Positions 16,590-45,481 of a stretch of DNA of 64,000 nt are shown here, in pieces. A model generated the notes under the pieces. The model was given only the letters and a program-made list of their open reading frames with translations, had not been told where the DNA came from and searched no databases. The DNA comes from Neckera pumila (Eukaryota > Streptophyta > Bryopsida > Hypnales > Neckeraceae): contig OZ018412.1 of assembly GCA_963969595.1 (NCBI GenBank), positions 14,076,501 to 14,140,500 on the forward strand. Direction: 5' to 3'. How positions within the stretch are numbered: the first letter of the stretch is position 1; the number at the start of each line of letters is the position of its first letter. Position numbers and translations under genes: made by a program.

Positions 16590-17632
16590 CTAAAACAACA
16601 ACACCAATAAGATGCAAAATGGTAAGTAATTTGGTATAAACATCAAAATTATGTCAAAAAAATTAGATTTCCTTATTATTCTACATACCAAATTGCATTT
16701 AGATACAATAAGTACCTCTTTGAATTATTTCAATCAACATCAACTTCTAAAAGCTAATATATTTCTATGACAGAATCAAAGCATTCTAACTTTTATGCTA
16801 ACTTTAAATTCATGCATAATTAAGACACCGCACCCCTATCATGTAATACCATGCTGGGTCATTGCAAGAAAGACCATTCAAAAAGTGTAGTGTTTTTCAT
16901 AGGACTCATGTTTTCTTTTAGTAGTACTTAAAAATTTGAAAAATAATTTAAAAAAAATGTGGAAAACATATTTAGTGTATAGACCTTTAAAAAGAAGGTA
17001 CTCTAGGAAAGAAAAGCATAGGAAATTTTTTAAGTAGGAGAATTAGAAAAGTGCAAAATCCGCCAAAAAGATAAACTTGCACTATAATTTCACATTTTAA
17101 TTTGTAAAAAATAAGAAAAGCAATTTAAAAAAAACCCACTAAAAACTGGCCATTTGGAAAGAGTTCATAGTGATGAGATTTCACCAAAAGACTGATCTTA
17201 GAACCATTTTCATTGTTCACAAATTGCGTGCAATGGGAGTACTATTTGCACTCATGTGGAGGACACAAATTAATATATTTTTTTATTCAATTTGGTAAGA
17301 ATATGCTTTCCTAGTACTATGTAATTTCAGCTCTAAATCATTAAATTTGGGTATTCCTAACGTAGTAAAAAAACCTAAATTGCACCGTGTGATAAATTAA
17401 CAGAAATGATTTTTAAATATAAAATGATTTTTGTTAATTTCTAAAAAGTAAGGGATCTGATTATTATAAAATTTGACATTTCCAATAATAATTTCATATT
17501 CACTAGACTTTTGCTTCAAAAGTTATAGCAGATGACAAAAAGGGTACCTTCAATGTGATGGGAAATAGGACCGGTCTTTCTTGCGATCAGCTTGCTTTAA
17601 TTATGAAATCAAATGTTGAGTTTGGTTCAGAC
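16590..17632 (-). other. Large intron of the receptor kinase pseudogene
   Basis: The donor at 17,632 (GTCTGA) and the acceptor before 16,589 (TTTTAG) join the N-lobe to the catalytic loop in frame. The intron is AT-rich. No further gene or clear element was seen in it. Confidence 0.6.
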
Positions 17633-17954
17633 CTCAAGGCTTCCGCAATATCAATGGTAATTTGCAATCTTTTGGCCCAAGGTAATGGCATCCCCGATCG
17701 TTCACCTTGCATTTGGTCTCCATTAGGGACATATTCATATACAAGCATAGGAACCTCCCTTTCAAAGCAACACCTATGCAATTGCGCCAAATTGCGGTGA
17801 TTCACTTGCGAAAGGAACAATACTTCATTCACATATTGCTTGGATTCCTTCCTGTCTATTCTGTTCGCCTTCTTGATTGCCACTTCTATGCCATTGTTGA
17901 GAGTTCCTTTGTACACTATACCAAATTCCCCTGATCCATTACAAGAATTTTGAA

Positions 17955-18173
17955 CCCTGCAAGGGGCTGCGAGTTTTTGATTTTCGGCACCTCTGCAGTG
18001 CAATTACAGAAAAATAAAATAATATTAAAAAAAAAAAATTTGACGTGGTGCTGACGTGGCACCAATAGTGCTATGTCAGCACCCAACTTTTTTAAAATAA
18101 AAAATAATTATTTTTTTCTATTTTTTTCCCTAATTGCACCTCGGGGGTGCAAAACTCGTGGCCCCTTCAAGGG
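17955..18173. mobile_element. MITE (CCCTGCAAGGGG ends) inserted in the kinase exon
   Basis: About 60-bp imperfect inverted arms: CCCTGCAAGGGGCTGCGAG at the left, with the mirrored CTCGTGGCCCCTTCAAGGG at the right. A second mirrored block follows inside (GCAGTGCAATTA / TAATTGCACC). The core is AT-rich with GACGTGG repeats. Flanks TTGAA/CTGAA may be the target duplication. It splits the glycine-rich-loop exon and so inactivates the gene. Confidence 0.75.
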
Positions 18174-19266
18174 CTGAAACTTTTCCTAATGCTAGTTTGA
18201 AATCATTCAAAAAGTTTTTTGTTGCTTTCTCAAACTCCTTCAATGTGTACAATGTTGTGCCTTGGGTTTTGTTTTCTTTCATCTTGTTGATATTCAGTTG
18301 GGTGAAGTACTTTGCTGTCATGCTTGAGTTGGATCGACAATTTGCATGACAGGCACAAAATGCCATACAGCTTCCCACAAGAAAAGACTCACCAATTGCA
18401 AGAAACCAACCAAGTAAAGTATCTGCAAATGCTCACACACAGAATTCATGAGTATCCATTCATGAGTATCCATTTGTAAGTTATCTGTACGAGCATAGTA
18501 CTTGATTCTCACATAAGCATGTAGCATTAATAAAGAAATAAATTTTAGTAGCTCTCAATATAATGATTGCACATGATGCCTTTACAATGTATGGACATTT
18601 TCATTTTTCGAAGATTAATAAGAGCGGCATCCTTTAAAATTGATAAGTAGACTAAAGTAGAAATTAATTAATTAAACTACTTTAGACTCTATTTTAAATC
18701 CACATAACCAATTGAAGAAGATAATGTTTCAAAACAACAATAATCAGTTGAGTCTTATGTCAGTCATATAAAACACCAAGTGCAAAGGTTAAAATTTTGA
18801 GCTTTGTTTTACGTAGTTTTGCCATCTAAATCTAGTATTTAAGGAATTACTGTAAGCATTAAGTATCAATCAATTGTTCAATAGCAAAACGCAACAAATA
18901 CTACAAATGTCTCAAACAATTGCCCTACCCTGGTCTTTTACTTGCAAGCTCACCTTGGAGTGTCGTTTTCTTCCTTTTGTACCCATTGCTTTCAGTTCCT
19001 ATTGCTTGAGAATCCACTCCATTTGGTGCTGGTGCAAGAGTTGGTGATGTCGGAGGTTCAAGAAACAATAAAGCTACAAAAAGAGTAAAAGGCAATTATT
19101 CGTAGAACCAACATCCGATCCAATTTGTTCACAGAGGACATGATGTCAATCCAAACGTAACTTAATTACACAATCCGCCCCAAACATATAAGAATTAATC
19201 ACCCGTGTTATACGTCTAAATTGAATTAGGTGTCCAATTAGGTGTTCTAAATATCAATCATGGTGA

Positions 19267-19992
19267 GGGTCGTTGCAAGATCACTTGTCCTTTTTGGTGT
19301 CCCCTGGGCCTTGGACACATATATTTTCACTCATAACTTTTGCGTTGTATGTCCTTTTCTCATAAAATTTGAAATGAGGGTACATATGGTAGTTTCAAAC
19401 ATTGTATAATTTTTTCCAATTTTTAAAATTAGTTTATTATTTTTAAACTGCCCCCAATTGGATGTCTACTTCGGCCATTTTGGAGGTTTTTAGTACTATT
19501 TTCAACTCAAAAATGCAAATTCGAAGGTGAAAATTGGTAATTAAGGAGTTCTACTAAAATCACACAAGCCTAAAAAGAAATTTTTCAAAAATAATAAAGT
19601 GTCCACCTTCCACATATGCTCAAAGTGTACTACCTTTGCACATGTGCAGAGAATACAATTTTTTTTTCCCAAAAGTGAAAATGGTTGAGGAGAAGCACCT
19701 CCAAGTTAAGAAAAATGTATTTTTTCCTTTAATTTTTTGATTTTTTTTACTATTTTCTAAAAATAAAATCCCATACTATGTATTTTCTTGCATTTTCCAT
19801 CACTCTTAGAATGTACATAACTTTTAGAGATAGATTTTTAAAGATCTGAATTTTCACATATATACTTATTTGAGTGCTTTACAAATTATCCATATTTTAT
19901 TTTATTTAAAAGAAAATTATTCCAAAAGTCACAATACTCCAGTACTAAGGCCGTTTTGAGCCAAAACCGGCAGGTGTTTCTTGCAACTACCC
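19267..19992. mobile_element. MITE of the GGGTNRTTGCA family, copy 1 (4-bp TSD GTGA)
   Basis: It begins GGGTCGTTGCAAGATCACTT and ends GTTTCTTGCAACTACCC, and is flanked by GTGA at 19,263-19,266 and 19,993-19,996. The ends match those of the 14.4-kb element at 31,105-45,477 (GGGTGATTGCATGAA). The interior contains a TTTTTAGTACTA block also seen in that element near 31,330 and in the copy at 25,458. 726 bp, non-coding. It lies in an intron of the kinase pseudogene. Confidence 0.85.
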
Positions 19993-25457: not shown

Positions 25458-26197
25458 GAGTGATTGCAAGAAACACTTGTCCTATTTTTTTGTCACACCC
25501 TATGTTCCTTTTTGTTTTTTGGCCATAACTTTTGCGTTCTGGCTCAAAATGATTCAAGATTTATAGGGAAGGTACTCATGACTTATGACTATTATACACC
25601 TTGTCTAATTTTTTGCTTTTTTCAAAAATGTTTTGCTAAATAAAAACAGTTTCCAATTTTATGTCATAAATTCCAATTTGGGGTTCTTAGTACTATACAA
25701 GTACCCCCAAAAAAGAATTTGGAGCCGAAATTTGAAGGAGATGCTCTTCTAGTAGAGTTATAGCTACGGTACAAAGTATTTCTAAAAATATTTAATTTTA
25801 TGTGGTGTAGAAGTCCACAGAAAGAGCTTCATTTAGCTTGCATTTTGAAACATATAAAACATATTTTTGGTGGTTCCTTTGGTGAATGACCATCTCTATA
25901 GAGTTGTTATAAATGACCAATTTTTATTTTATTTAGTAATTTTTTTTCCTATTTTTAACTAATTAAAACATCAAAGTATCTATTTTCTTGAGTTTTGGCA
26001 CTTTTCTACTTCTCCTACTTAAAAAATTTTCCTAGTTTTTTTCCTTTGGTGGTTACCTTCATCTTAAAGATGTATACATAAATTATATTTTTTTTCTTTA
26101 AAAAAATTTATTTTTCTAATTTTAAAGTATTCCAGAAACAGTCATGAATATTGTTACAAAACGCAACAAATAGTATAAGTGTTTCTTGCAATCACCC
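25458..26197. mobile_element. MITE of the GGGTNRTTGCA family, copy 2 (4-bp TSD ATTA)
   Basis: It begins GAGTGATTGCAAGAAACACT and ends AGTGTTTCTTGCAATCACCC, almost perfect inverted repeats. It is flanked by ATTA at 25,454-25,457 and 26,198-26,201. Interior motifs (CATAACTTTTGCGTT, TTCTTAGTACTATA) are shared with 19,267-19,992, and the AGTACTA block with the 14.4-kb element. 740 bp, non-coding. Confidence 0.88.
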
Positions 26198-31100: not shown

Positions 31101-31104
31101 TTGA

Positions 31105-32231
31105 GGGTGATTGCATGAAACACCGGTATTGAAACATTGTCACAAAAAGTGTTGTCGATGTATTACTTGTTGTAATTTTTTCACAAGGAAGAGTTAGAAG
31201 TTGAAATTTTTGGTGAACGTAGCTCTGTTTAGTACTATTGTGATGCATGTTTTTTATATTTTTAGAAAATTACAAATTTTTTTCTATGTAATTTCAATAA
31301 TTTGTCACGTTTTGAGTTTTGGGGGTTTTCAGTACTAAGGAGTACCCAAATTAGAAGATTAAGACTTGAATTTTTGGTGCTTTCTTCCCACAATAGGAGG
31401 GCACCCCTCTACAAAGGGGCGCTTGAAAATACTTTATTTTATGTCCTCTACGCTTGTCGGATTAGGGCTCCGTTGTGTGCAAATTTCTGGGCAATGACGA
31501 TGGTCTTTGTCGTATAAAATGAGTGGAATGTGATCAGAAGGAAGTCCCTGGAAATGGCATTTTCCATTTTTTTTTCTAAGGTATTTTAAATTTACTACAA
31601 ATTAAAATGTGAATGTATCATTTTCGGGGTAGAAAACTGGACCCTGGATCTACCTAGTACTGCTGGGTATTGATTAGTACTACCTAGTACTGAGAGCAGG
31701 ACCCACAGACCCTGGCCCATGTCAACGTGGCATGCTGACATCTCTGTCGCCGCCGCATCCTCCAATTTCATTGTTCCTGAATCGACGGCAAGTCATGCAC
31801 AAGGCGTAGCATGGATGGCGGTTTAGGATTAGCTGAAGTCGTCGTGCAGGCGACCTAGGGTTCTTCGGTGCTAGAATTTGGAGAGAGGAAAGATGAGGGA
31901 ATCGTTTGCCTGTGCAAGCAGTAGCATGGTCCGGAAGTGGGTACTTTGGAGCATTGTGTTGCACTTGAAGGTCAGTCGTTGGTTACATGATCGCTCTTAA
32001 AATCTCTTCAAATGCAGACAGCGAGTGTGTCTGCGTCGCGTGGAAGACGACCGACCCCTTCACGTGCAGATCCAAGTACAAGACAAGCTGCAGTGGAGGT
32101 TCAGCAGCAAGAAGAACGATGGCGCAATGTGGTGCGGCAGCAGCGCAGTCGTGCTTCTTGGAGTGTTGTTGGTCGAGACGAATAAGACGGCACTGCACCT
32201 CCACGTGATTGATCTTCATTTCGTACCACAG
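31105..32231. other. Left subterminal region of the 14.4-kb element
   Basis: It contains the left TIR, a TTTTCAGTACTAAGGAGTACC block shared in part with the two small MITEs, clustered AGTACT motifs (31,657-31,700), and a GC-rich part 31,700-32,230. That part probably holds the promoter, leader and first exon(s) of the transposase gene. No start codon can be assigned with certainty. Confidence 0.5.
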
Positions 32232-35200
32232 TGAAGCGGCTTGCGGACCGAATCTCCGTCACGTTACTAGAGCTTCTGGAGGACGTTGATTGCCCACAAC
32301 TTTGTGCTCCAATTTTGAAAAGGGTCTTCCGTTACGACCGGGTCCGCGAACTGCTTCCTGCTGATTATCCGAGTCCAGAAGATGTGAAAGTGCAGCAAGA
32401 AATTTTGAAGAATATCCGTGCTCAACTAGACCTCCTGAAGATTCCAAATGCCGCTGGCAAATTGGCACGTAAGCGCTCCATTCTTGAAGCTGTTGTTTCC
32501 GAAGCAGATGCTGACATTAGTAGTTTTCATTGCATTCTTGGTACGCGCAAGAGCAACTTGACCGGAGCAGTTGAGCGCCTGCGTTCATCTTCAAGCGACA
32601 ACGGTGACAGATTATTGGTGCCCCGCCGAAGAAAACGTGGAGGAGGAATTCCAGATGCCGTCAAGTCTGCAGTGACGAGTTGGTGGACCGAGGAGACCCA
32701 TGTTAGTCCAAATAGAAAGGACATTTGGAGGAAGCGACTAGGCCGAAACTTGTACAACACTCATGCGGCTCATCTTCTATTGGAAACCCAGGTTCAAGCA
32801 TCCCTCTCAGTCGTCCTTTCATGTGTGCACTTAGTCTGCCATGTCGCATGTATTAGTCCATGGCTGTTTCGATTTATGCACTTCTCGTTTCTCCACTTCA
32901 TCCGTCACGTGTATTACCGATAGTATATAGTATCCCAATATGCCCTCCTTGCTAAGCACTTTGGTGTATGTCTTGTGCATCCCAAGTAGATTTTCCCGTC
33001 AGTACTTTGTATCAGCATCTACTTCCCGTACTCTGTCATGCAGTACTGTAAGTCCATTTGTGAATGAACTGTATGAACACTTTGTACCATCAGTCTGTAC
33101 ATTGCCGTGGCACTAAACTTAGAATTCCGTCTCAACGTTTATTGTCCGTCCCCAATGTACTAGAAGTTACATCTTTTCATGGAGGTTTGACTCCCGTCGT
33201 CATGAAAGTTCGGTGTGCTGTACTAATACAAGCACTGGTCACTACTGTGTGCTATTGAAGACTACCATGACTGTAGTTGAAATGGCACATACTTTCAGTA
33301 TCGTTAGTGTTGGTAAGCACTGGTCTTACTATAGAAATACATTAGGACGCAAGAACGTACTCATAGTACTGTTATGCAGGTATCGGAGTACACTGTGCAA
33401 ACTATCATTGACAGTCTAGTACTATGTTTTCCTTCGTAGAGTTCAGTAGTACAAGTATAGTCCTCACTTCTGTCTTCTGTACTTCTGAACATGTCTACCA
33501 CTGACATCAGTACTTCGTATACCTCTAGTACTTATTAGTACTCATCAGTACTCTCAAGTCCTAGTTAGTCTTACTTAGTACTCAAGAGTGCTAGAAATAC
33601 TTACTAGATCAGCACAAATGTGTATTCACTTGTTGTTGAAGAATTCGAGTACCCACTTCGCACGCCATAGAACCTGCTTTCATAGTGAAATTCATACACG
33701 ATTACTTGTATGCATCTTTCATAATTCACCATCTTCCATTTCACTAAATTTTTTTACCGTTACTGTGCAGAAGGAATTGTACAACCGCTTCGTTGCTATT
33801 CATCCATATTGTGTCATTATGCAACGAGCTTTTGTTTACTTGCGCCCTTCCTTCATCATCAAGTGCAACAAACGTGATGTATGCTGTTGTTGATACCATG
33901 TTCAGATTCTTTTCCTCCTGGAGGCCCTCAATGCATTTAGGCACCCACAAACCGGTGCACACTTCCTTATACAATGCAATTGTAAATGCATTGTCTGTGG
34001 AGACAGCAACGATGGTGTTTGCAAGGCTGGTGACCATCGCTTTGTGGGGGTCACGGCATTGTGGGAGTCCTTGCTATGTCCTAAGTTGGATGACTCAGAA
34101 TTCCATCGGCTTGAATGTCTGCTGGGAACATACAGCATGTGTGGCGTCAGTTCCTTCAGACTTTGTCCACATGAAACGTTGGACGTTCCTGCACTGACCA
34201 TAAATTGGAAGCAATTCCAATATGAAGTAGTTGGCTCCGGAGCAGATGGTAGGCCCAAAAAATGGATCAAGGAGGTCCTACGCACTACTCTATTCTTCGA
34301 GTTTCTGGAATTCTTCGAACCAACTGTTCAGCCCTTCATTTGGCACAATTTTGAAGCTCGTTGGCAAACTGAACAAGCTAAGGTACTTTGGCAATGCTTG
34401 CAAGAGGGCACGGTCCTCAGCCACATAGACTTTGCTGAAAACTACACCTTCCAGGTGCAAAACGAGATTCACTCGATGTATTACAACTCCACTCAAATTA
34501 CCATTCTGGTTCATGTGACCTACTACATTGCCACTGTTGAAGTAGACGGTGAACGACAACCTTCCCTTACAAGAGAATCTCACTACTACATCTCTGATGA
34601 CAGGACTCATGACACTCTATTTGTGCAGCATTGGCAGTGGTTCTCCTCAAATCACTTCTCACCTCATACGCACATCGTCTTCAGCAATGGGTGCTCACGC
34701 CAATTCAAAGGGGCTAGAGCCATGTACTTTGCTGCAAGGTGATATTTTTCAGAACTAACTCTAAGACCATTTCATTTTGAATGTACTGTGTAATAGTTAC
34801 TGTGTCACACGTGTAGCTTCAGTGATTCTGCATTGTAGTACTTCGCAGTACTGCAAAGTATCGTTTCCTGTCCTCGAATGACTAATTGTGCATGCGGCTT
34901 TCACTCCTTCACTACTGTAGGTACCCATCATTGACTGCTGGGTGTAAAATGGTTTGAAATTTCTTTGGCTCTGGACATGGAAAAGGTGAATGGGATGGTG
35001 CTGGAGCTGTGGTGAAGCGCAAGCTGCGGTCTGAGCAACTTCATCATGTTGATCGCACTCTGCAAAATGCAACGGACTGTGTCACTTTCTTGAATGTGTC
35101 ATTGGGTGACCAAGTTCCCAACGGACGTGATCGACTCAGGTAACATGAAAGCACTTTCTTTCTGTACAAGTTCCCACCTTCCTAGATTAACATTATGTAC

Positions 35201-35975
35201 ACGGTTTTTAAAAATAAAGCCCTCTGCATTTGAACATATCTACTGCTCTTACACGGTAAAATATACTTTACTTATATCTGTATTTCACGTCGTCAGGTCA
35301 TACAGGATTTTCCACTATGTGGGCATTGAAGATGTCCCGCGCAGCACCCCTCATGCTTGTGATCCTATACTGGGTTCGTCCACATTCCACTCCGTTTTTG
35401 CTGGAGATGAACATGATCCAACAAAGCTTTTTGTGAGAGAGTTGTCTTGCTTCTGCGGTCCGTGCTTGGAAGAACATTTCAGTGACTGCGAGAACAAGGC
35501 ATATGTCAAACCTTGGAAGGTGCTGAAGATTGAACCCCAACATTTGAGCTCTTCCCGGTTGCAGGACGTGCAAGACGATGGAGAAGACCCTTGGGAGTGG
35601 GACTACACAAGGGAAGGCATGTTTGATTTAGTGCAGCCAGGAGATAATTTTGCCGTCCCTGCTGCTCCGGACAATGATGAGGGGGTTTCATTCTATGTAT
35701 TGCAGTGCCAAATGCCTAAGTCCATTGTGTGTGAAAGCTTTGATTGCACTTGGGGAGGGCACTTTGAAGCGGGAGACTCTGTCATTTCCGGGACTTACTA
35801 CCAGAAATGGGGTCGACACGACCTTCATAATTACGTGTACTTGGCGAACTCACAAGTTGCGCATGTGGATGCCAGCATAGTCCTCGCATGCAAATTTCAG
35901 ATGATTCCAAGAGAACACAGGGTGAAAGGTGGTCAACGAGTCTACAGCTTATACTATAAGAAATCCCCGTTTTAG
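32232..35975 (+). pseudogene. DDD transposase-like gene of the 14.4-kb element (four visible exons, decayed)
   Basis: Exons 32,232-32,791, 33,771-34,738, 34,921-35,139 and 35,297-35,975 join in frame at GT-AG junctions. The first likely follows an upstream exon (acceptor ACCACAG at 32,225-32,231). In order: helical N-terminus with KRKRGGG-like basic patch and TEETHVSPNRKDIWRKRLG; Cys/His-rich region (CNCKCIVCGDSNDGVC); RNase H-like core with HIDFAENY (Asp codon 34,428-34,430), HIVFSNGCSRQFK (34,686-34,688) and GHGKGEWDGAG (Asp 34,994-34,996); C-terminal zinc-binding-like RELSCFCGPCLEEHF. This motif set is known to me from transposase-type proteins of invertebrates and lower plants. Damage: TGA at 33,891-33,893 and 34,955-34,957, and the second catalytic position reads Asn where Asp is expected. 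Splice sites are otherwise good. Confidence 0.8.
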
Positions 35976-35978
35976 GTG

Positions 35979-36195
35979 ACAAGCCTTAATTTTTTATGAC
36001 GGATTTTAGGTGATGTCAATGTTGACAATCCAAAAATTTCATGTCAACAAAAATGTACTATGTAACATCAATATTGGCAATCCAATGTTTTTATGTCAAC
36101 ATTGATGTAACATTGTGCATTTTTTTTGACATAAAAATTTTGGGTTGTCAACATTGACATCACCTAAAATCTGTCATAAAAAATTAGGACTCGTT
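35979..36195. repeat. Foldback/MITE directly after the transposase stop codon
   Basis: The arm TGATGTCAATGTTGACAA (about 36,011) mirrors TTGTCAACATTGACATCA (about 36,147), within ~60-bp imperfect arms reaching TTAATTTTTTATGAC / GTCATAAAAAATTA. The interior has further GTCAACA-type repeats. It starts four bases after the stop codon. It may be an inserted MITE or a structured 3' end; no convincing target duplication was found. Confidence 0.7.
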
Positions 36196-36934
36196 ATCTA
36201 AAATGGAGGTTTCTTATAGTGTTACCCGATGAAACTGTGGACGTCATCCACAGTGCACTCGATTGCCTATGGCTGCCATTGTCACTACATGACGATTTAC
36301 TGATCATGTAAAGTTTGTGCCTGACAAAATGAAGTGCCACTACTAGTACGGTGCCTAGTATCGCTTTTAAGAAATAGTAATCCTGTGGCAGTGATTCGTG
36401 GTACTAACTTCAATGCTGTGCAACACTATGACAGAAGCAATGCATACTACTCAGTCATGAAGAGTACTTTGCAGTACTCACGAGGACTGCAAAGTACTTT
36501 TGACTCTAGTAAGTACTTAGTTCTGCACACCTTTACCAACATTTAGCAAAGACAATAGTATGAATTGAAGAAAACTGTAAGGATTACCGTGTACTAAATG
36601 CGTCGTTCATTTCAAATGTGGTCTCAGGCAGTCCTTCTTATACTATAACACTGTCCACTTACTACTTCACAGTTACTAGGCAGTGCCAGTACATAACAAA
36701 ATTTGATGAACGCATGGTTGTTATTACAGAAGGAACAAGGCTTAACCACTCAACTTTTTAATTCACAATATGAACACAATTGTGCATGGCATTAATATAA
36801 TAGGGACAGACACATCACTGTCTGGGCTGAAGGAAGGACCTCCCATTACATCTATGTACATGGAGTTGTATGTGCCTACTTCGGTTTCTCTGTACTTCAT
36901 AATTGAAATCTAAACTGCACAACTTTGCTGGCAC
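36196..36934. other. Spacer between the convergent 3' ends of the two element genes
   Basis: About 740 bp rich in AGTACT/GTACT motifs (for example 36,473-36,510). No open frame is supported. It probably holds both polyadenylation regions. Confidence 0.45.
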
Positions 36935-37862
36935 TCATCGTCCTCTATAGAGCGAGCTACCACAGTGGCAGACAAATGCGGGTGGCTCTTCATCAAAGAC
37001 AATGCCATAATCCCAGGTCTGCTCCTCCCCAGCTTGTATGGTGCGGTCCGCAAAGAAAGCTACCTGTAGGACAACCGTGTACAGGAATTAGTACATAAGA
37101 CTTTCTTGATTCACAGAAAATGGTCAACAAAGAGAGAAAATGTACTGCAATGTGAACACTTGCATGATATACCGTTGGACTTCGCATGTCGACCCAAACG
37201 GGCATGTCCATTAGATTGGCATCTCCACATCTGTCATAGACAACAGCAAAGTCTCAGTAATAAATAGGGGAAACAATTATCAATGACGTTCTCAATTGCA
37301 TGACATTCAGAAGTAACAGTTCAGCTCCCCTGCCTATGATTCAACCACCTCGCCACGTTGGTCATCATAGATGCATCAATGGAGTGAAGGCAGCTATCAT
37401 CCTGCAGAAGCTCGGACTGCCAGTCAGCATCTAGAGCGAGGGCAAACTTCATGCGGTCTCTTCTTCTAAGCAACTCAGAGTTGCTAACCACTTTCCCAGC
37501 ATATTCGAAGAGAAAGGTTCCCGGCAGCATAGTCTCCACTCTGCAAATTCCCCAACCTTTGGAGTCATTCACATGAAACACCTAAACAAGAAAGGAGGGC
37601 AGCAGTGATTAGTTATGGAACTCATGTGCGTTAGTGGTTCAAGAAAAAAGGACATTGTTGCTTTCACCTGCAACTTCACACTGAGTCCTTTCTGGACTAC
37701 TCAATTCAAACAAGACGGAGGGCAAGTACAGCTGTAGTCACACTCTCGAATGTAAAGCAGAGGAACATGTCCATCACACTGTTTGTTTCTGAGCTCAGGG
37801 CATTGGGGCTTGTCATTGCAATATAGAATTCCTCTTCTACAACCTCGCCGTCTTTCAAGGAA
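36935..37862 (-). other. Pre-SET C-terminus, SET and post-SET exons
   Basis: Four exons carry the best preserved part. 37,862-37,668: Cys-rich pre-SET end (YIRECDYSCTCPPSCLN, then a TGA where Arg is usual). 37,581-37,334: SET start (GWGICRVETMLPGTFLFEYAG) through NVARWLNH. 37,230-37,173: completes NHRCGDANL across the splice. 37,063-36,935: ADRTIQAGEEQTWDYG and post-SET Cys residues. In SUV39-type enzymes NHxC and the Tyr of DYG belong to the active site, and both are kept; the position before DYG, usually Phe or Tyr, is Trp. Confidence 0.82.
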
Positions 37863-38599
37863 CTGCAGAATGGAATGGAACGTCAGCACTGAATGTCAAC
37901 ATGCTATTCCGGTGTTTCCTTGTTTTTTGCGAAAAACTCAGTGCCCTCTCTGGCAACCAGCAGCGGAAAAAAAATGTCATTAAGCCTAAAGGATGCCTTG
38001 ACAGAGCCACTGGAAACTCCTAGGCATGTGCGTAGCCCTTCATTGTGGATTTTTCTTGCACAACATACAATGGAATATTACTCAAGAAACCCACTTTCAG
38101 CATGAGGTTGGCCCAAAGAAAACATACCTTAAGGACTAGTCGCGGATGCAGCAGACCTCCCCGAATGTATGCACACTGCGTTCTGCCAATGTTGCAACAA
38201 CAGTCTCCAACATTGGCAAGGCAGCCGTGCTTACCAATGGCATAGTGTTCGGCCATGCACAGGTGCCCCACAGGCAGGTCATGCGCTACGACAGAGGAAT
38301 GAATTCCAGTGGATCACACATACGTGTACAATTTGTCCAACACAGCGTATGAATTCCCATCAATGCCCTCGTCGAGGCCAACGGGGACTCTTTCTAGACC
38401 TTTAGACACGTCATACTCAATGGAGTCCGTAGCTTCCTGTTCAAATGCGGTCATCATACACAAAGTGGTCCATAGGAGTTTGACACAGATACTTTCATTA
38501 CAGAAAACAAAGTACAGATGATGATATGCGTGCATGTTCTTGTGCACCGCCATGGAGGTCAGTTCAGAACACTCGCTATATGAGGTAGGATCCACATAC

Positions 38600-39043
38600 C
38601 ATTTGCCAAATTCACATGTGAAAACACGGATACTCGTGTTTCCATCGTCGGGTTCCTATTCCGGACCCCTTCTGTCGGCCTGAAGTTACAGTCCGTAATC
38701 TTTGGCCGACATGCCTCCAATCAGCAGACCCTACTGTAGGAGGCCCACAGCTGTCCCGTGGGCCTTGGAGCACTACGTGAAGTGAAAAGGAAGGTCATTC
38801 CCTGAGGTAGCTGTGAAAGCATAGTGGGGCAACCGCAGTGGAGGAGGCCAGTGCCACTGGCTGAGTCCCACGGGACTCCCGTGGGACCTCGACCACTGCA
38901 TACGCCCTGAGTACAATATACAATAACATGTTCATTGTCCAGTTGACAAAGATGAACATGAACATTCCAGAGGTAGACTCTTTGGAGGATTGATGGCAAA
39001 GTCATCTTACTGAAGCATTGTTAACTTATTTCTTAGAACCCAC
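38600..39043 (-). other. Intron-like stretch of the SET gene with a GC-rich, palindromic patch
   Basis: Exons 39,183-39,044 and 38,436-38,128 join in phase across it. The patch 38,720-38,910 is GC-rich with TCCCGTGGG and CCCACGGGA palindromes, possibly a small insertion. No exon could be justified. Confidence 0.4.
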
Positions 39044-39928
39044 CTTACTATTTCTGTTCATTGAACCAGCATGATGAGTAGGTGATGAGTTCTGAGCTGC
39101 TGCTTTTACTGCATGATGTCGACCTCGAAGGACTCTAGTTGGGGAAGCAACCTCAGCTACATCCTTGACCTCTGCTTCGTTCACTGCACATGCATTTACT
39201 ATATAAGACAGAGTAGGGAAGCAACATGTAATGACAATACTATGAAGCATAAGAGCACAATGCATTCTAGTACTGCTGCAGTACTGCAAGTCGTTCGTGG
39301 CAGCATGTTCGTAACACGAAGCAGTACATAATACTGACAGACAATACTATTTATTGCTGACTTCTCTTACCCATTGGTTGTAGGCACGCGGCTGAGGTGG
39401 TAGGCACACTGAGCACCTTCATCGGTGATGTTGGAGATGGGACTACAGCATTGTTTTCCACATTTTTCTTTGGGCATTTTGATGTCCGGTCATAAGTGAT
39501 AGCATACGGGTCCTCTTCACAATCTGATGCATTTGTTTCCTATTCATTTCATAGGAAAACATTTATAAGAGGACTGGACGTAGAAGGAATCCCGGGGACT
39601 TGAAACAAAAAAATTGCATAATCTGAAGTTGTGATGGCAAATCAAATATTTGATCTGATGTCAACGTAGGGCATGGGGCTAAATTTGAAATGGAAGGAAA
39701 CAACAAGCAGAAGTAATGATTGAATTTGCACTTACTGGCACCGGAACATTGACTTCAGGACTTGCAATTTCAGTATCCATGGCATGGGCCTCATCCTCCA
39801 CAGGTTCAGCATCCCTAAAGCATTCATCTTGAGTTTGGATGTCCAAGTGCTTGCTTTGCTCTTCACAATTGTGGACAACGAGACCAGTTGACTGAACTCC
39901 AGTGTTGTTACCAATGCTAGAGAAAGGG

Positions 39929-40301
39929 CAGGGTTGTCTTCCCTGATAGACGAACAATATGATAGACAAATTTTTGTTCGACGTCCAGTAGAGTGAATAG
40001 ACCCCCCATCTGTCTAATAAAGTCAACTTTAAATTTGACTTTCAAATAACTTTCAATTAAAGAATTATCTCTTTATAAATCTTAACATATTAAAGTTCCA
40101 TTTTATTAAAGTGTCTCAATTGAATTAACACTTATTACATTTTGAATTTTGAATCATACTTGAAATGAGATTTCTATGAGCAATCAGCTATGTAGAGGGC
40201 CTTATTAGACATGGTCAGACAGACAAATTGTCATATAATATGCGACATCAGACGTCTATCAGACGCCAAAATCCAAAATTTTGTCTAACAAGACAACCCT
40301 G
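39929..40301. mobile_element. hAT-like MITE inside the SET gene
   Basis: It begins CAGGGTTGTCTT and ends AAGACAACCCTG. It is flanked by AGAAAGGG (39,921-39,928) and GGAAAGGA (40,302-40,309), an 8-bp duplication with two differences. CAGGG termini and 8-bp duplications are typical of hAT. The 373-bp AT-rich insert stands out from the GC-richer exon around it, and the reading frame is meaningful on both sides. Confidence 0.85.
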
Positions 40302-41144
40302 GGAAAGGAGAGTTGCTTTTCCCAAGGACATCAGCATCTGCACATGTCTTTGGCGTGCCCTCCTATGTAGCTGATATGTCCAATGGCGACGTGTCAGTGC
40401 AGGTCTGCTTGAAATTTGTTGATGGAATTAAGAGCTGGGATGCAAAGGCATTACATGAACCATCAATGTCTGGCTATACACAAGCTGGACTGAAGTCAGA
40501 TCCTTCATGGCCAAACTTCATGATCTTTGGGATGATGACCTTGGTGCCTTCTGGAAAGCGTTTCGACACTGTGCTATTTGTAGCAGATGTACTTGGAGCG
40601 CCATCGCATCCTCGGGAGCAACCTACAGAAGTAAGACACAGTGGAGTGAGTCATGCCATGACTATGGAATTCAGTACATTAGACAAAGCAACACCAACAG
40701 AAATTCATATGAAGTGAGAGGAACAACCTATACTTGCTTATGTTAGTATTAATGTTGTTTACAAGATGGTTTATGCAATGCATAGTGCTCACAGTACTGA
40801 CGGTAGTGTAGATAGGTACAAGAACAAGTACTTCAGGAGCATGGAGGAGACAGTTTGTCATGTCATGAAACAGAAGACAACAAAGTGCACAATGCGTTTA
40901 TGGTGCACCGAGTACAAGTCAGACACCGTTGCAATATTTGAATTGCAGATACTATAGACTCTGTGTGTTACGATTGCGAGCAAACTATACTATTGCCCTG
41001 TATAGTGTTTCAAAATGTAGACCACAGTAGTTCTTAACATGCTTCACAACAATTGAAAGAGTATCACGAAAATGAAAGTAGCCTTCTACCTGTGCAAACT
41101 GGAGGGTAGTGATCATCACTGAAGGGACTAGAAGTCATCATTAC

Positions 41145-41888
41145 CTACAAGTGCCTTCCGCTGCCCGCAAATTTGTGTATCCCAGGCTACACTTGTAGAA
41201 GTTCCTTGTTGCACATCGTCTGCATGGCCAGCACGAAGTTTGTTGTATTGCCCGAAACCCCAACTACTGTACCACATAGGGGGAACAAGACCACAATCGG
41301 GCACAGCACATTCTACAGTGCTCCTAAACCAGTGACACACACACCATGGATGGTAAACATGGGTGCAAGGGCAAAGAATGATGTCCTAGAGTGGGAAACC
41401 TTGGAAGCAAAGGCAACACTCCAGAGTAGGCGGCAGCATAGGTTCAGCATTAGTGGGAACCAGAACATCCTCACTGCTGCTGGATGGCCATGGACGCATC
41501 ACACATGTATCCTTCCCTAGAGTGAGGTCCATCAAGTATGTTTTCAAAGTGCCTAGGCGAGTGATGTTGCCCTTCAATGCAGTAGAGGCTTCATGCAATT
41601 GACTCTCCAATGCATTCTTAGATGCTTTGAATGTTGACAATTTCTTGACATTTGAATAGAACATCTTCATAATGGGCGCCATGCTTGCCTCATTTGGAGG
41701 AGGACAGCTGTCATCTCCAGCAAGGACAATGCTACAATCATCTCTCGCCTCAGTCAACGATGACTTGAACTGCTCTACAAGGTGGAAGGAAGCCTCCCAC
41801 TGCATAGCAGCTTGAGCAGCCTTGGCCTTAACGTTGTTCACTTCCTGCTGTAAGCGCTCCACCTCAGCCTCCACGATGTGGACAAGTT
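41145..41888 (-). other. Coiled-coil and RING-like exon of the SET gene
   Basis: The acceptor is AATAACAG and the donor GTAATG. The exon encodes a long heptad-like helix (ELVHIVEAEVERLQQEVNN and on), a linker and a zinc-finger-like cluster: CCLC, CPCTHVYHPWC, CAVPDC. The spacing resembles RING/PHD-type fingers, so a role as E3 ligase or protein-interaction module is possible. A TAG at 41,386-41,388 lies inside the cluster. It splices in phase to 40,622, which is why I treat it as the same gene as the SET part. Confidence 0.65.
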
Positions 41889-43911
41889 CTGTTATTTTCC
41901 CTTTTTTGCATAACAAAGACATGTCACACAGAATGAGGACAATGACAGAAGACCATAAGACTATTCATTGACCACAACAGTAGAAGAACAGTACGAACAC
42001 GTTTGCCAGGTGACATTAACGTGCAAGTGCAGACCAGGAGAAAAGTGTATAGGGTGCACGACAATTGGGAATCCGTGACCTCGTACTTGTGGTACTCTGG
42101 AGGACTGGACAAGTACATGAAAGGACACACCACAAGTACTTCAAGTACAATGTTCAGAACGGCTACCGCGGCCCAGTGTACTCTTAGTGCACTGAAGGAC
42201 TGAATTGGCTACAGAAGAGCAGTGCGTAAGGGTGAAGGTCAGTACTGAGAAAGAGTGGAAGTGCTACAACGTAGTTGGCGAAGGACATGGAACCTGTGCA
42301 TGTCGTAATGTGAAGGTCTATTTCAGCATTATTTGAGCATGCCGTGCACTACAATGGCTGCGTCGTGTACCACAACGGACACGGGAGTACTGACAGGGAG
42401 AGGGCATATTTGCTATGAAGACCCGCACTAAAGTTATTCTACTCTACTGTTACTGCTCTATACTATACACATGATAGTTTGAAGCACTTACTACACAATG
42501 TACCAGTGCAGACCAACAGTGACTGAAAATGTGAGCACCAGGAGTACTTGCATGCTAAAAGTACAGGGCAAAGTACCAGCGACTGAACATGCAGCAAGTA
42601 GGCAACATCCACTACATTGTAACGCACTCATTTTATTGAATTCTCTACTGGACAGTACTGCTACCAATGCTTATGTACAACTAAAAGGAAATGTTCTATA
42701 CAAGAAACAGGCATGTCATTTCATTTACAAGTACAACGCAAACTTTCTGCTCACAAGTGGTGCGCACGCATGCTTCATAGGAGAGAAGTCAAAATCAGGA
42801 GAGAGTAGTACCTGGCTGTGACCTCCTCACTGTGGGTGTTGGCATCATGTTGTAGAAAAAAGAAGGCTTCCTGTCGGCAGTTGCTGTGCCCTCTGTAGTC
42901 ACTCCTGCGGACAAGTCCAGCACTTGAACTTTCTCACCAACAGCATCCGCATACTCCATCAACCCCTCTGCAGCGTAAAGATCACGTACTGGCACGTCGA
43001 GGACTTTGGCCAATCGTTGCATGCAGGCCTTCAGTCTTCTGCAGTAGGACTTTCGCTGGAGTGAATTCGTCTCCGCCGCAAACTCCGCCCAATTGACCTT
43101 CTCTTCTTTCACCTTCTCCAAAACAAATCCAATGGCGAACTCCTTTGCCACAAGAGTGGATGGCTGCGTCTTCTGGTAGTACTTGCAATAAAGTTCCTCT
43201 ACCTCTTTCCGCTGAGATTGAGACAGTTTCTCAATCAGAGAACCCATTTCTGGATTTCTCTGGACCAAAAACATCTTCTACCTCCTCCAAGGTGATGTTC
43301 TTTCCAATCTTCAATCTATGGGTGTTCGTTCCTTCATTGTGAAGGTCAAAAGCTGATGCAAAATGTGTGGAAGTCATCGCTTGAGGGGGCCTTTTGTCGT
43401 TGGCGGCCAGTGACGCCAACTCCTTGCGGCAGTCATATTCGGAGTAGTCCTCCTCTCTTTTCTTGGTTCTCCGTGCAGGTGCAGCAGTCGCCCTTGTGAT
43501 GACGACATTGTCCTCACTGTGCACATCTTCTTCACCCTTTGCCTGACCATCGGGAGCACCCTGACCACCATCTGATGAGCCTGAAGAAGTGCTATCGCTA
43601 CGTGCCACAGAGGTGACCTTCTTCTTTCTTGGAGCAGTGGCCTTGTCCTTTGTGGAAGTGGTCCGAGCAGTGACAGCCGAGACCGTAGACTGCCCAGACT
43701 GTCTTTTCCTCTTCTCGCCTGCATGACCTGATTTTGATGGAGGCAAGGTAGTTGACTTTGCCTTCATTGTAGCATCCTTCTTTGGAAGTTTCTTCTTTGC
43801 ATATACAATGGCTTCCTCCGACTCTCCGCTATCATCTGATCTCTCATCCTCCGACAGCACTTCTTCCACAACTGGTTGTGGCCGGATTGGAGTTCTCTTC
43901 ATTTTTCCCAT

Positions 43912-45477
43912 ATCAAATCCTTTGTTGCTTCCGTTTGTCTTTCAAATGAAAGCAAGACATGAGCGGCTGACATGATTGGCAGAGGAGAACCATATCACTA
44001 TGAATTTGCATGACCAATTAAAAAAATAGAGGAAATCTGTAATCATTGTAGGTTACCAAAACCGCTGACATGTAAGGAACAATGAAGGTTGAGTGACTAT
44101 GGAATGGCAGTGGCAATAGGACTGAAAGTATTAAGTAGTACTGCAGCAGACCGGACCCTAGTACCTCTTAGTACTTTGTGCATCCTGTATGCATTGAAAA
44201 CCCTAACTTGCAGAAAAACAAAGAAGCACTTTTCGTTCAAGAGCGCAACAAGGGACCTTTGCATAGCAGTTCTGAAGTCCTACATTGTCGTCCAGTCTTC
44301 CCACTCACAACAGCACTACGCTCAAAAACCCTAAACCACGGCGTACAACAGACCTGCAGTTGGTCGACCTCCAGACTAACATTGGGTGGAAACACTAAAA
44401 CAGGAAAAGTAGAGGACAACCACGACAGCACTACATCACCACATGACAGCATACAAGCTCTTCCAAGCCGACTGGATGCGGTTATGCCTGTGAGGAAGGG
44501 TAAAACGACAAAACGAACTCAGAAGACCACCACATCGGGCGTCGTTGAACCTTCTACCAGTGATAGTTGCACGGGAAGGCCATTCCTCTGTGCATCTGAA
44601 CATGTACCTATTTGGCCAAGAAGGAAATCCCAAAAGAAAAGGGACAGAAGTTTGGCAGAACTTACCTAATGCCTTGTCCTTCGAAGTCGCCCTCTCACAG
44701 CGCGGACGACCACAGCTCCAGCGTTGTCGACGCCTGAAAGGTCTGCCCTCCCTTACTCCGTGAAGCCTAAACCCTCCTCGAACGCCGCGCACTGTAGACT
44801 CTTCCAACGTTGCGCCCGCCCTACCGCCCTTAGTCCTGAACTCTGAAGCAAGGAACCCTAAACCCTAACCCGCGACAATAAGAGCACTTCTACCCATGTC
44901 ACTATGTTGTTGTCCCACAGCGGAACCACATTGGTACACGCGCGCACTCAAGCATGAAGCGGAAGATCTTCCAACAATCAACCGCGTCAAGAAACTACAG
45001 ACCATGCCCTCTCACGCTCAACACTGCAAACCTCTCCGATGTCCGAAACCCTAGTCTCCCCACTTCAACAACAACAACGTTGAGCAATTCGAGAGAGACG
45101 AAGTGAAGAAGGCCGGATGAAAGTCGGCGACTGAATCCTTCCCTCCGGAAGTCGATGAATTTCATTGTGCCTTCAACGACTCCCGCCCCATCCAATTGTT
45201 TGAACGGCAAAGCTACAACCGCATGACACGTGTTCACATCCTGTAGACATTTCAGTTTCCACAGCCTTGAATGGCGGCCACATTTATTCCACGGGCCACC
45301 ACCATGCGACACTTGTCCAAAGCGCAGAAGATCTGTATTGCCATCGACAATTAGAATTGTGTCCCAATTTCGACAAGTAGTACAGTTAGTACTCCTAGTA
45401 CAGCCGAGTACTGTCCGCCAGAATGCCAATTTCAGCCAAAACGGAACAAAAACGTGAAGTCATTCATGCAACTACCC
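43912..45477. other. Right subterminal region of the 14.4-kb element
   Basis: Region 5' of the RING-SET gene. An open minus-strand frame at 44,995-45,429 has plausible protein composition (VSHGGGPWNKCGRHSRLWKL) and could be an upstream exon or a relic, but no domain is recognised and the first residue is not secured. The rest holds AGTACT motifs (44,140-44,175, 45,380-45,415), CCCTAAACC-like short repeats (44,330, 44,860) and the right TIR. Confidence 0.4.
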
Positions 45478-45481
45478 TTGA

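Follow-up and report, generated by a model that had tools for sequence, protein, structure and literature searches.

Why should a DNA transposon keep a gene for an enzyme of the class that writes a silencing mark? Transposons are normally targets of methylation of histone H3 at lysine 9 (H3K9), and SET enzymes of the SU(VAR)3-9 type write this mark. The question is raised by a DNA transposon in the window, a 64,000-nucleotide stretch of the Neckera pumila genome (C5:14076501-14140500), in which a DDD-type transposase gene faces a gene with RING and SET parts. Comparison of copies, in genome searches that all used this single genome (339.5 Mb, 18 contigs), shows that the element moves as one unit with 4-bp target site duplications (TSDs), that its gene content is shared across copies and between two families, and that its SET domain has been under long-term purifying selection. 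The window element is probably a decayed copy of a Sola-like lineage that makes its own active H3K9-type methyltransferase and regulates the chromatin of its copies through the short motif AGTACT.

The limits of the element were set from its ends, from the alignment of copies and from the reading across its junction.

31105..45477, no strand assigned: whole DNA transposon, family 1, 14,373 bp
31101..31104, no strand assigned: left TSD, TTGA
45478..45481, no strand assigned: right TSD, TTGA
31105..31119, plus strand: left terminal inverted repeat (TIR), GGGTGATTGCATGAA, 15 bp
45463..45477, minus strand: right TIR, GGGTAGTTGCATGAA, 15 bp

When the element and one TTGA were deleted in silico, a gypsy integrase read in phase across the junction, and this reading was broken when the extra TTGA was retained; the boundaries are therefore exact. 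The end pattern GGGTRRTTGCAWGAAAC had 1068 exact matches in the genome, against none for a reversed control. An earlier note on this DNA had described the inverted ends, the TTGA duplication and the split integrase frame, with a DDD transposase-like gene and a convergent RING-SET gene inside. All were located, the genes lying on the plus strand from 32213 to about 35951 and on the minus strand from 41922 to 36938.

32213..32793, plus strand: transposase exon (splice sites predicted by eye; start codon and upstream exons tentative)
33771..34741, plus strand: transposase exon with the first catalytic Asp (34428-34430) and the second catalytic position (34686-34688)
34922..35140, plus strand: transposase exon with the third catalytic Asp (34994-34996)
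35295..35951, plus strand: last transposase exon, up to an insertion found only in the window copy (other copies continue from the equivalent of 36222)
36938..37581, minus strand: SET domain and post-SET, three exons (37581-37333, 37229-37173, 37063-36938)
37668..37862, minus strand: cysteine-rich exon directly before SET
38128..38436, minus strand: exon leading into the SET part, cysteine-rich, pre-SET-like
39029..39539, minus strand: tentative further RING-SET exons (about 39539-39370 and 39202-39029; open reading only)
39737..40623, minus strand: middle exon of the RING-SET gene, interrupted by an insertion
41131..41922, minus strand: RING exon, predicted coiled coil and RING-H2-like finger
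42795..43911, minus strand: gene A, basic N-terminus and conserved C-terminal half (a separate gene or the first RING-SET exon)

The window copy itself is dead, its genes being broken. Its transposase has in-frame TGA codons at 33891-33893 (R in the consensus) and 34955-34957 (W in the consensus) together with a 15-base gap, and its second catalytic position reads Asn where the consensus has Asp. A frameshift near 33890 was ruled out, as an in-frame stop lies there instead. Stops in the RING-SET gene include TAG at 41386-41388 and TGA at 37701-37703, and a 2-base gap breaks the frame of gene A. The stop-broken readings at 39.7-40.6 kb turned out to belong to an exon when copy comparison revealed the insertion.

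The close copies establish the element as a repeated unit. A search with the left 596 bp, in which the best 40 of 1127 candidates were scored, gave at least 10 close copies (89-100%) and at least about 30 distant ones near 69%. Seven of the 10 close copies, at different loci, align end to end over 13.5-16.7 kb with pairwise identities of 92-95%, and six of these have exact TSDs (TTGA, CGAG, AAAA, ATAT, TTAA and TAGA). The seventh is flanked by TCGT/TTGT, with one mismatch, and in the copy flanked by ATAT the first base of the element has changed to C. The flanks of all nine other close copies were compared (10 kb only for C6b): copy C9 contains large insertions and its right end was located by a separate search, and no matching right end was present in the flanking DNA compared for C6a and C6b. 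The SET region lies within the ends of 8 of the 10 close copies. The earlier note had asked for several full-length copies with 4-bp TSDs and both genes, and had named a single-copy SET gene, a SET gene outside the ends or shifting boundaries as grounds for abandoning the idea; the former exist and the latter were absent, the boundaries agreeing in all seven aligned copies. Two truncated copies at C6:21812124 and C6:21845514 lie in opposite orientation about 33 kb apart, and because they have an identical left flank the segment around them seems to have been duplicated in inverted form.

A second family, at loci on C4 and C10, has the same order of transposase, SET, middle exon, RING and gene A as family 1, and the SET cores of the two are 80% identical. 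This repeat of the layout in a diverged family speaks against a single chance capture. A TSD was found in one of the two family-2 copies with both ends seen (the C3 copy, with TTCT at both ends); the left end alone is known for those on C10 and C2. Between the family-1 consensus and the C4 copy, the proportions of synonymous (pS) and nonsynonymous (pN) differences were 0.78 and 0.158 for SET, and 0.74 and 0.162 for the transposase. Synonymous sites are near or beyond saturation, and dN/dS was left out of the comparison because pS exceeds the limit of the correction in places. Since the pN of SET is about that of the transposase at saturated synonymous sites, selection has held SET as tightly as the transposase. 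The pN was 0.275 for RING, 0.292 for gene A, 0.394 for the middle exon and 0.358 for the pre-SET exon, and the C10 copy gave values similar to those of C4.

The same pairing recurs throughout the genome. The transposase search returned 121 rows, which form 109 loci, and the SET search 117 rows, which form 50 loci. SET lay within 10 kb of a transposase at 31 of the 50 loci and was convergent with it at all 31, compared with a random mean of 0.77 (maximum 4 in 500 runs); two further SET loci face a transposase at 10.4 and 12.2 kb. The share of transposase loci with SET, grouped by transposase identity to family 1, was 8/9 at 85% or more, 7/7 at 70-84%, 8/13 at 55-69% and 8/33 at 45-54%. RING matches lay within 15 kb of a transposase at 43 of 67 loci, 40 of them facing it and 26 with a SET match in between (random mean 1.9, maximum 7 in 300 runs). 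Among the distant RING matches many have low significance (E down to 1e-3), but they are not placed at random. RING is spread more widely than SET, and some families have RING with no SET detected; a diverged SET may be hidden in these. At one such transposase locus, C11:1982180, RING occupies the usual convergent place with no SET detected between, SET being either diverged or replaced there. At C9:1715220 and C9:18161534, SET sequences 68% and 63% like family 1 have RING nearby and no transposase within 10 kb, and are likely remnants or separated pieces. Contig C11, with less than 4% of the assembly (12.3 of 339.5 Mb), holds 30 of the 109 transposase loci and may be a sex or heterochromatic chromosome.

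What type of enzyme does the gene encode? The SET domain matched PF00856 (E 1.7e-12 for the window pieces and 4.6e-16 for the family-1 consensus), and the best PDB matches of the window's own pieces were EHMT1/2 (E 4e-29). Its catalytic and post-SET motifs are invariant in the two families, and the consensus gene reads through to the post-SET motif. The SET core is 51% identical to that of an unlinked gene at C1:47273000, which we take from its motifs (NHRC.DANL) to be of the SUVR type, and 35-36% identical to two single-exon genes of the same genome, presumably SUVH-like. The element SET and the C1 gene are also alike in that the reading is interrupted after LNHR. The SU(VAR)3-9 assignment of the earlier note holds at the level of the domain and its structural matches, and is refined in that the SET is closer to the SUVR-like gene than to the SUVH-like ones. 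Unlike a plant SUVR, the element protein has a RING and a long N-terminal part and is encoded inside a transposon. The RING was matched by Pfam zf-RING_2 with E 0.0053 on the window piece, below the Pfam cut-off, and, of two proteins scanned, only the family-2 protein gave a match (E 0.0019). All eight ligand positions are identical across the two families, and on these sequence features we assign a RING to the window gene with modest confidence. Many cysteines before SET, where a pre-SET zinc cluster is putative, are invariant between the families. Gene A had no Pfam match, and a piece of it folded alone gave a pLDDT of 50, a low confidence. Protein-database searches with RING-SET showed no RING-SET relative outside this genome among the matches listed, which were one SET protein of another class and one SETDB1.

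The transposase is of the DDD type and RNase H-like, and a second-look structure aligner gave an integrase fold. Foldseek gave nothing with E < 0.001 (best 1.1e-3, NurA), a Pfam scan of the window transposase found no family and no transposase match, and an NCBIfam scan of four homologues gave nothing for three and one weak, chance-like match for the fourth. Homologues occur in Klebsormidium and Calypogeia, which together with the CHG decay described below and the SUVH/SUVR-like genes points to a bryophyte or other streptophyte as host; scans of viral contigs with a homologue and its alignment confirmed nothing. Sola elements are described, in passages on the superfamily, as having a DDD transposase, 4-bp TSDs and TIRs of at least 11 bp, and as known from moss (PMC10741241). 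The window element shares all three features, and its size of more than 13 kb is within the Sola range published there (PMC10741241). The transposase fits this description, a placement made by DDD and 4-bp duplications rather than by comparison with named Sola proteins. Kolobok elements are described as duplicating TTAA specifically (PMC9587614), whereas TTAA is one of six different TSDs in family 1, and the 7-12 bp TSDs given for MuDR/VANDAL elements (PMC10741241) differ from the 4 bp seen here. The passages on Sola describe a Fanzor cargo (PMC3627910) and no SET or RING cargo.

HarbingerS elements have a Harbinger-type transposase and 3-bp TSDs, which differ from the 4-bp TSD and the lack of a Pfam transposase match here. 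As described in part of the published account, HarbingerS and MuDR elements of Phytophthora carry a SET histone methyltransferase gene, so a SET gene inside a DNA transposon is common to both systems (PMC12730594). They belong to another superfamily and host group, and that part of the account mentions no RING partner, gene A or AGTACT arrays (PMC12730594). Literature searches showed no plant SET-bearing transposon among the papers listed, which is not proof of absence. SET cargo in DNA transposons is already published, and the plant Sola-like lineage with RING-SET is a new variant. The statement of the earlier note that no standard plant DNA transposon superfamily is known with this cargo must be narrowed, as the backbone fits Sola and the cargo is known from Phytophthora. 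SETMAR (Metnase) also unites SET and transposase, but it is described as having arisen through insertion of an Hsmar1 transposon next to a SET gene, whereas the lineage of the window has two convergent genes within mobile copies.

A possible address for the enzyme lies in the noncoding DNA. The palindrome AGTACT occurs 38 times in the family-1 consensus and not once in 5259 masked exon bases; 2.7 occurrences (maximum 9 in 300 runs) are expected in the noncoding DNA under a first-order Markov model. In two family-2 copies it occurs 41 and 33 times, with a single exonic site in each. AGTACT ranks first among 6-mers by over-representation in each noncoding set of both families, and 594th in the window outside the element. 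Spacings of ten bases are the commonest in family 1 (8 times). Noncoding DNA is barely alignable between the families except near the ends, and still the AGTACT numbers are kept. Three sites at the right end are conserved, with the same spacing in the family-1 consensus and the C4 copy of family 2.

45385..45477, no strand assigned: the last 93 bp at the right end, which can be aligned between the families; three AGTACT, spaced 9 and 10 bp

Triple AGTACT clusters number 397 genome-wide, against 113 for the reversed pattern. Of the 24 in the first 31.7 Mb of C1, four are inside a family-1 copy; among the remaining 20, eight have an exact end match no more than 1.5 kb away (random 0.2, maximum 3), and one of these eight lies between paired ends. 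Because clusters occur near other element ends, they are also present in further, probably small, relatives outside the two big families, which is what a site read in trans would lead one to expect. In four small elements the single sites number 1, 2, 0 and 2. From these sequence patterns AGTACT is a candidate address for an element protein. In VANDAL elements of Arabidopsis, according to the sections on VANC, the motif YAGTATTAY lies in tandem repeats of noncoding DNA and is absent from two coding probes (PMC5735166). An element-encoded factor acting on silencing and short noncoding motif arrays are common to both systems; VANC differs in removing silent marks, with no SET domain mentioned in those sections, VANDAL is MuDR-type (PMC5735166), and AGTACT is only a putative binding site.

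Two stretches of the window copy are secondary insertions.

35952..36221, no strand assigned: secondary insertion unique to the window's element, a large imperfect inverted repeat (none of the seven other copies that extend this far has it)
39932..40292, no strand assigned: secondary insertion in the middle RING-SET exon, approximate limits (not there in the other six aligned copies)

The inverted repeat (35953-36220) has 127-nt arms that are 86% complementary and sits in the last transposase exon. Copy C3a has an insertion 94% similar to the second one, about 190 bp from its place, and copy C2a has a 3.2-kb insertion at the matching place. Small relatives also occur in the window: a non-autonomous one of 740 bp at 25458-26197 (ends GAGTGATTGCAAGAA/GGGTGATTGCAAGAA, TSD ATTA/ATTA) and one of 726 bp at 19267-19992 (ends GGGTCGTTGCAAGAT/GGGTAGTTGCAAGAA, TSD GTGA/GTGA). 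A lone left end, GGGTCATTGCAAGAA, stands at 16856. The nearest right end (19992) belongs to another element, and 16856-19992 was rejected as a single element, its flanks differing (TGCT/GTGA) and its right part being the separate element from 19267.

We favour the following account of what the enzyme does. The element is equipped with a DDD transposase gene and a convergent gene for RING and a SUVR-like SET (and gene A in the two families examined). The RING-SET protein would have H3K9-type methyltransferase activity, would benefit the element that makes it, and would act in trans on the chromatin of elements. An element-encoded protein may read AGTACT in noncoding DNA and bring the enzyme there, and the mark would then control the expression and mobility of copies. 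It seems likelier that the element regulates its own chromatin than that it attacks host genes or chooses target sites; the published parallels (VANC and VANDAL arrays, SET cargo in Phytophthora, and SUVR4, which is described as converting monomethylated H3K9 (H3K9me1) to the trimethylated form (me3) in vitro in a ubiquitin-linked manner) lead us to favour such a self-directed regulator. The account leaves its direction undecided, between self-restraint and escape from the host loop that joins dimethylated H3K9 (H3K9me2) to CHG methylation.

Several observations weigh against this account or limit its reach. No SET was detectable within 10 kb of 78 of the 109 transposase loci, including all 47 under 45% identity, and the cargo is therefore not required by the wider transposase group. 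A third-family locus on C6 has SET but only 5 AGTACT in 20 kb, about the number expected by chance, so the motif is not tied to SET. In family-1 copies AGTACT was intact at 209 of 257 sites against 2531 of 3095 for words of the same letters, a similar decay, and with CG/CHG sites excluded the figures were 94/115 and 1490/1709, a slightly greater decay. In all seven aligned family-1 copies the transposase is no longer intact and the RING-SET gene is broken. A Pfam scan of the RING-SET proteins found no pre-SET match. The C4 copy of family 2, both ends of which were seen, lacks a matching duplication; it has a degenerate left end, and an extra inverted 40-bp left end lies beyond its right end. 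In a tree of eight SET cores one element SET from C11 groups with the host gene (77% support), and there may therefore have been more than one capture of SET.

Other explanations were weighed against the same data. A host SUVR fragment might have been picked up once by chance and be a passive passenger, like the fragments in Pack-type elements. Host fragments are common in DNA transposons, and elsewhere in this genome an unlinked gene is 51% identical to the SET, with the same break after LNHR. We regard this as very improbable, however, as the layout is the same in a diverged family whose synonymous sites are near saturation, with equal pN in SET and transposase, the nearby SETs are convergent in 31 of 31 cases and the consensus gene reads to the post-SET motif. 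Chance capture is largely refuted by the family comparison and the genome-wide convergence. We give little credence to the view that insertions are directed to heterochromatin by the methyltransferase or by the mark it makes. The window copy does sit in a gypsy element and C11 is rich in transposase loci, but C11 has no transposase of family 1 or 2 (70% identity or more) and the TSDs differ among copies.

Two explanations give the enzyme opposite effects on the element. In family-1 copies C-to-T changes from the consensus affect 12.4% of CG, 9.4% of CHG and 2.2% of CHH sites, which fits plant-type CG and CHG methylation and makes it probable that the H3K9me2-reading loop had silenced them. It is possible, if tentative, that the SUVR-like enzyme counters this silencing by turning H3K9me1/2 of the element into me3, or by tying up host SUVR partners, and so starves the loop, with ubiquitin from the RING stimulating it. 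H3K9me3 looks permissive in Arabidopsis seeds in the portion of the published account that deals with it (PMC13017857), the CG/CHG decay indicates that copies probably met the host loop, and the noncoding motif arrays resemble VANC targets as described (PMC5735166). On the other hand, the passages of a review that concern the ubiquitin effect give two inconsistent versions, and the heavy CG/CHG decay suggests that copies end up methylated anyway. A more specific form, in which RING-SET is drawn to AGTACT in full and small copies and a RING-stimulated, SUVR4-like conversion of me1/2 to me3 breaks the H3K9me2-CHG loop, so that the element escapes by adding methyl groups, appears unlikely. It is rather doubtful that the enzyme serves self-restraint by putting repressive H3K9 methylation on copies as their number rises. 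The catalytic and post-SET motifs have been kept, and large copies are few (at least 10) against the 1068 end-pattern matches of the wider group, but copy number says little, and as a general argument self-restraint is hard to maintain by selection on single copies.

The element lineage has carried a writer of the silencing class long enough for synonymous sites to come near saturation, and selection on it has matched that on the transposase. This strict conservation of a chromatin-marking enzyme suggests that the elements control the state of their own chromatin. The standing question of why a silenced parasite keeps a silencing enzyme thereby becomes directly testable in one genome, in which the AGTACT arrays are a candidate address in the sequence by which a histone methyltransferase could be guided.

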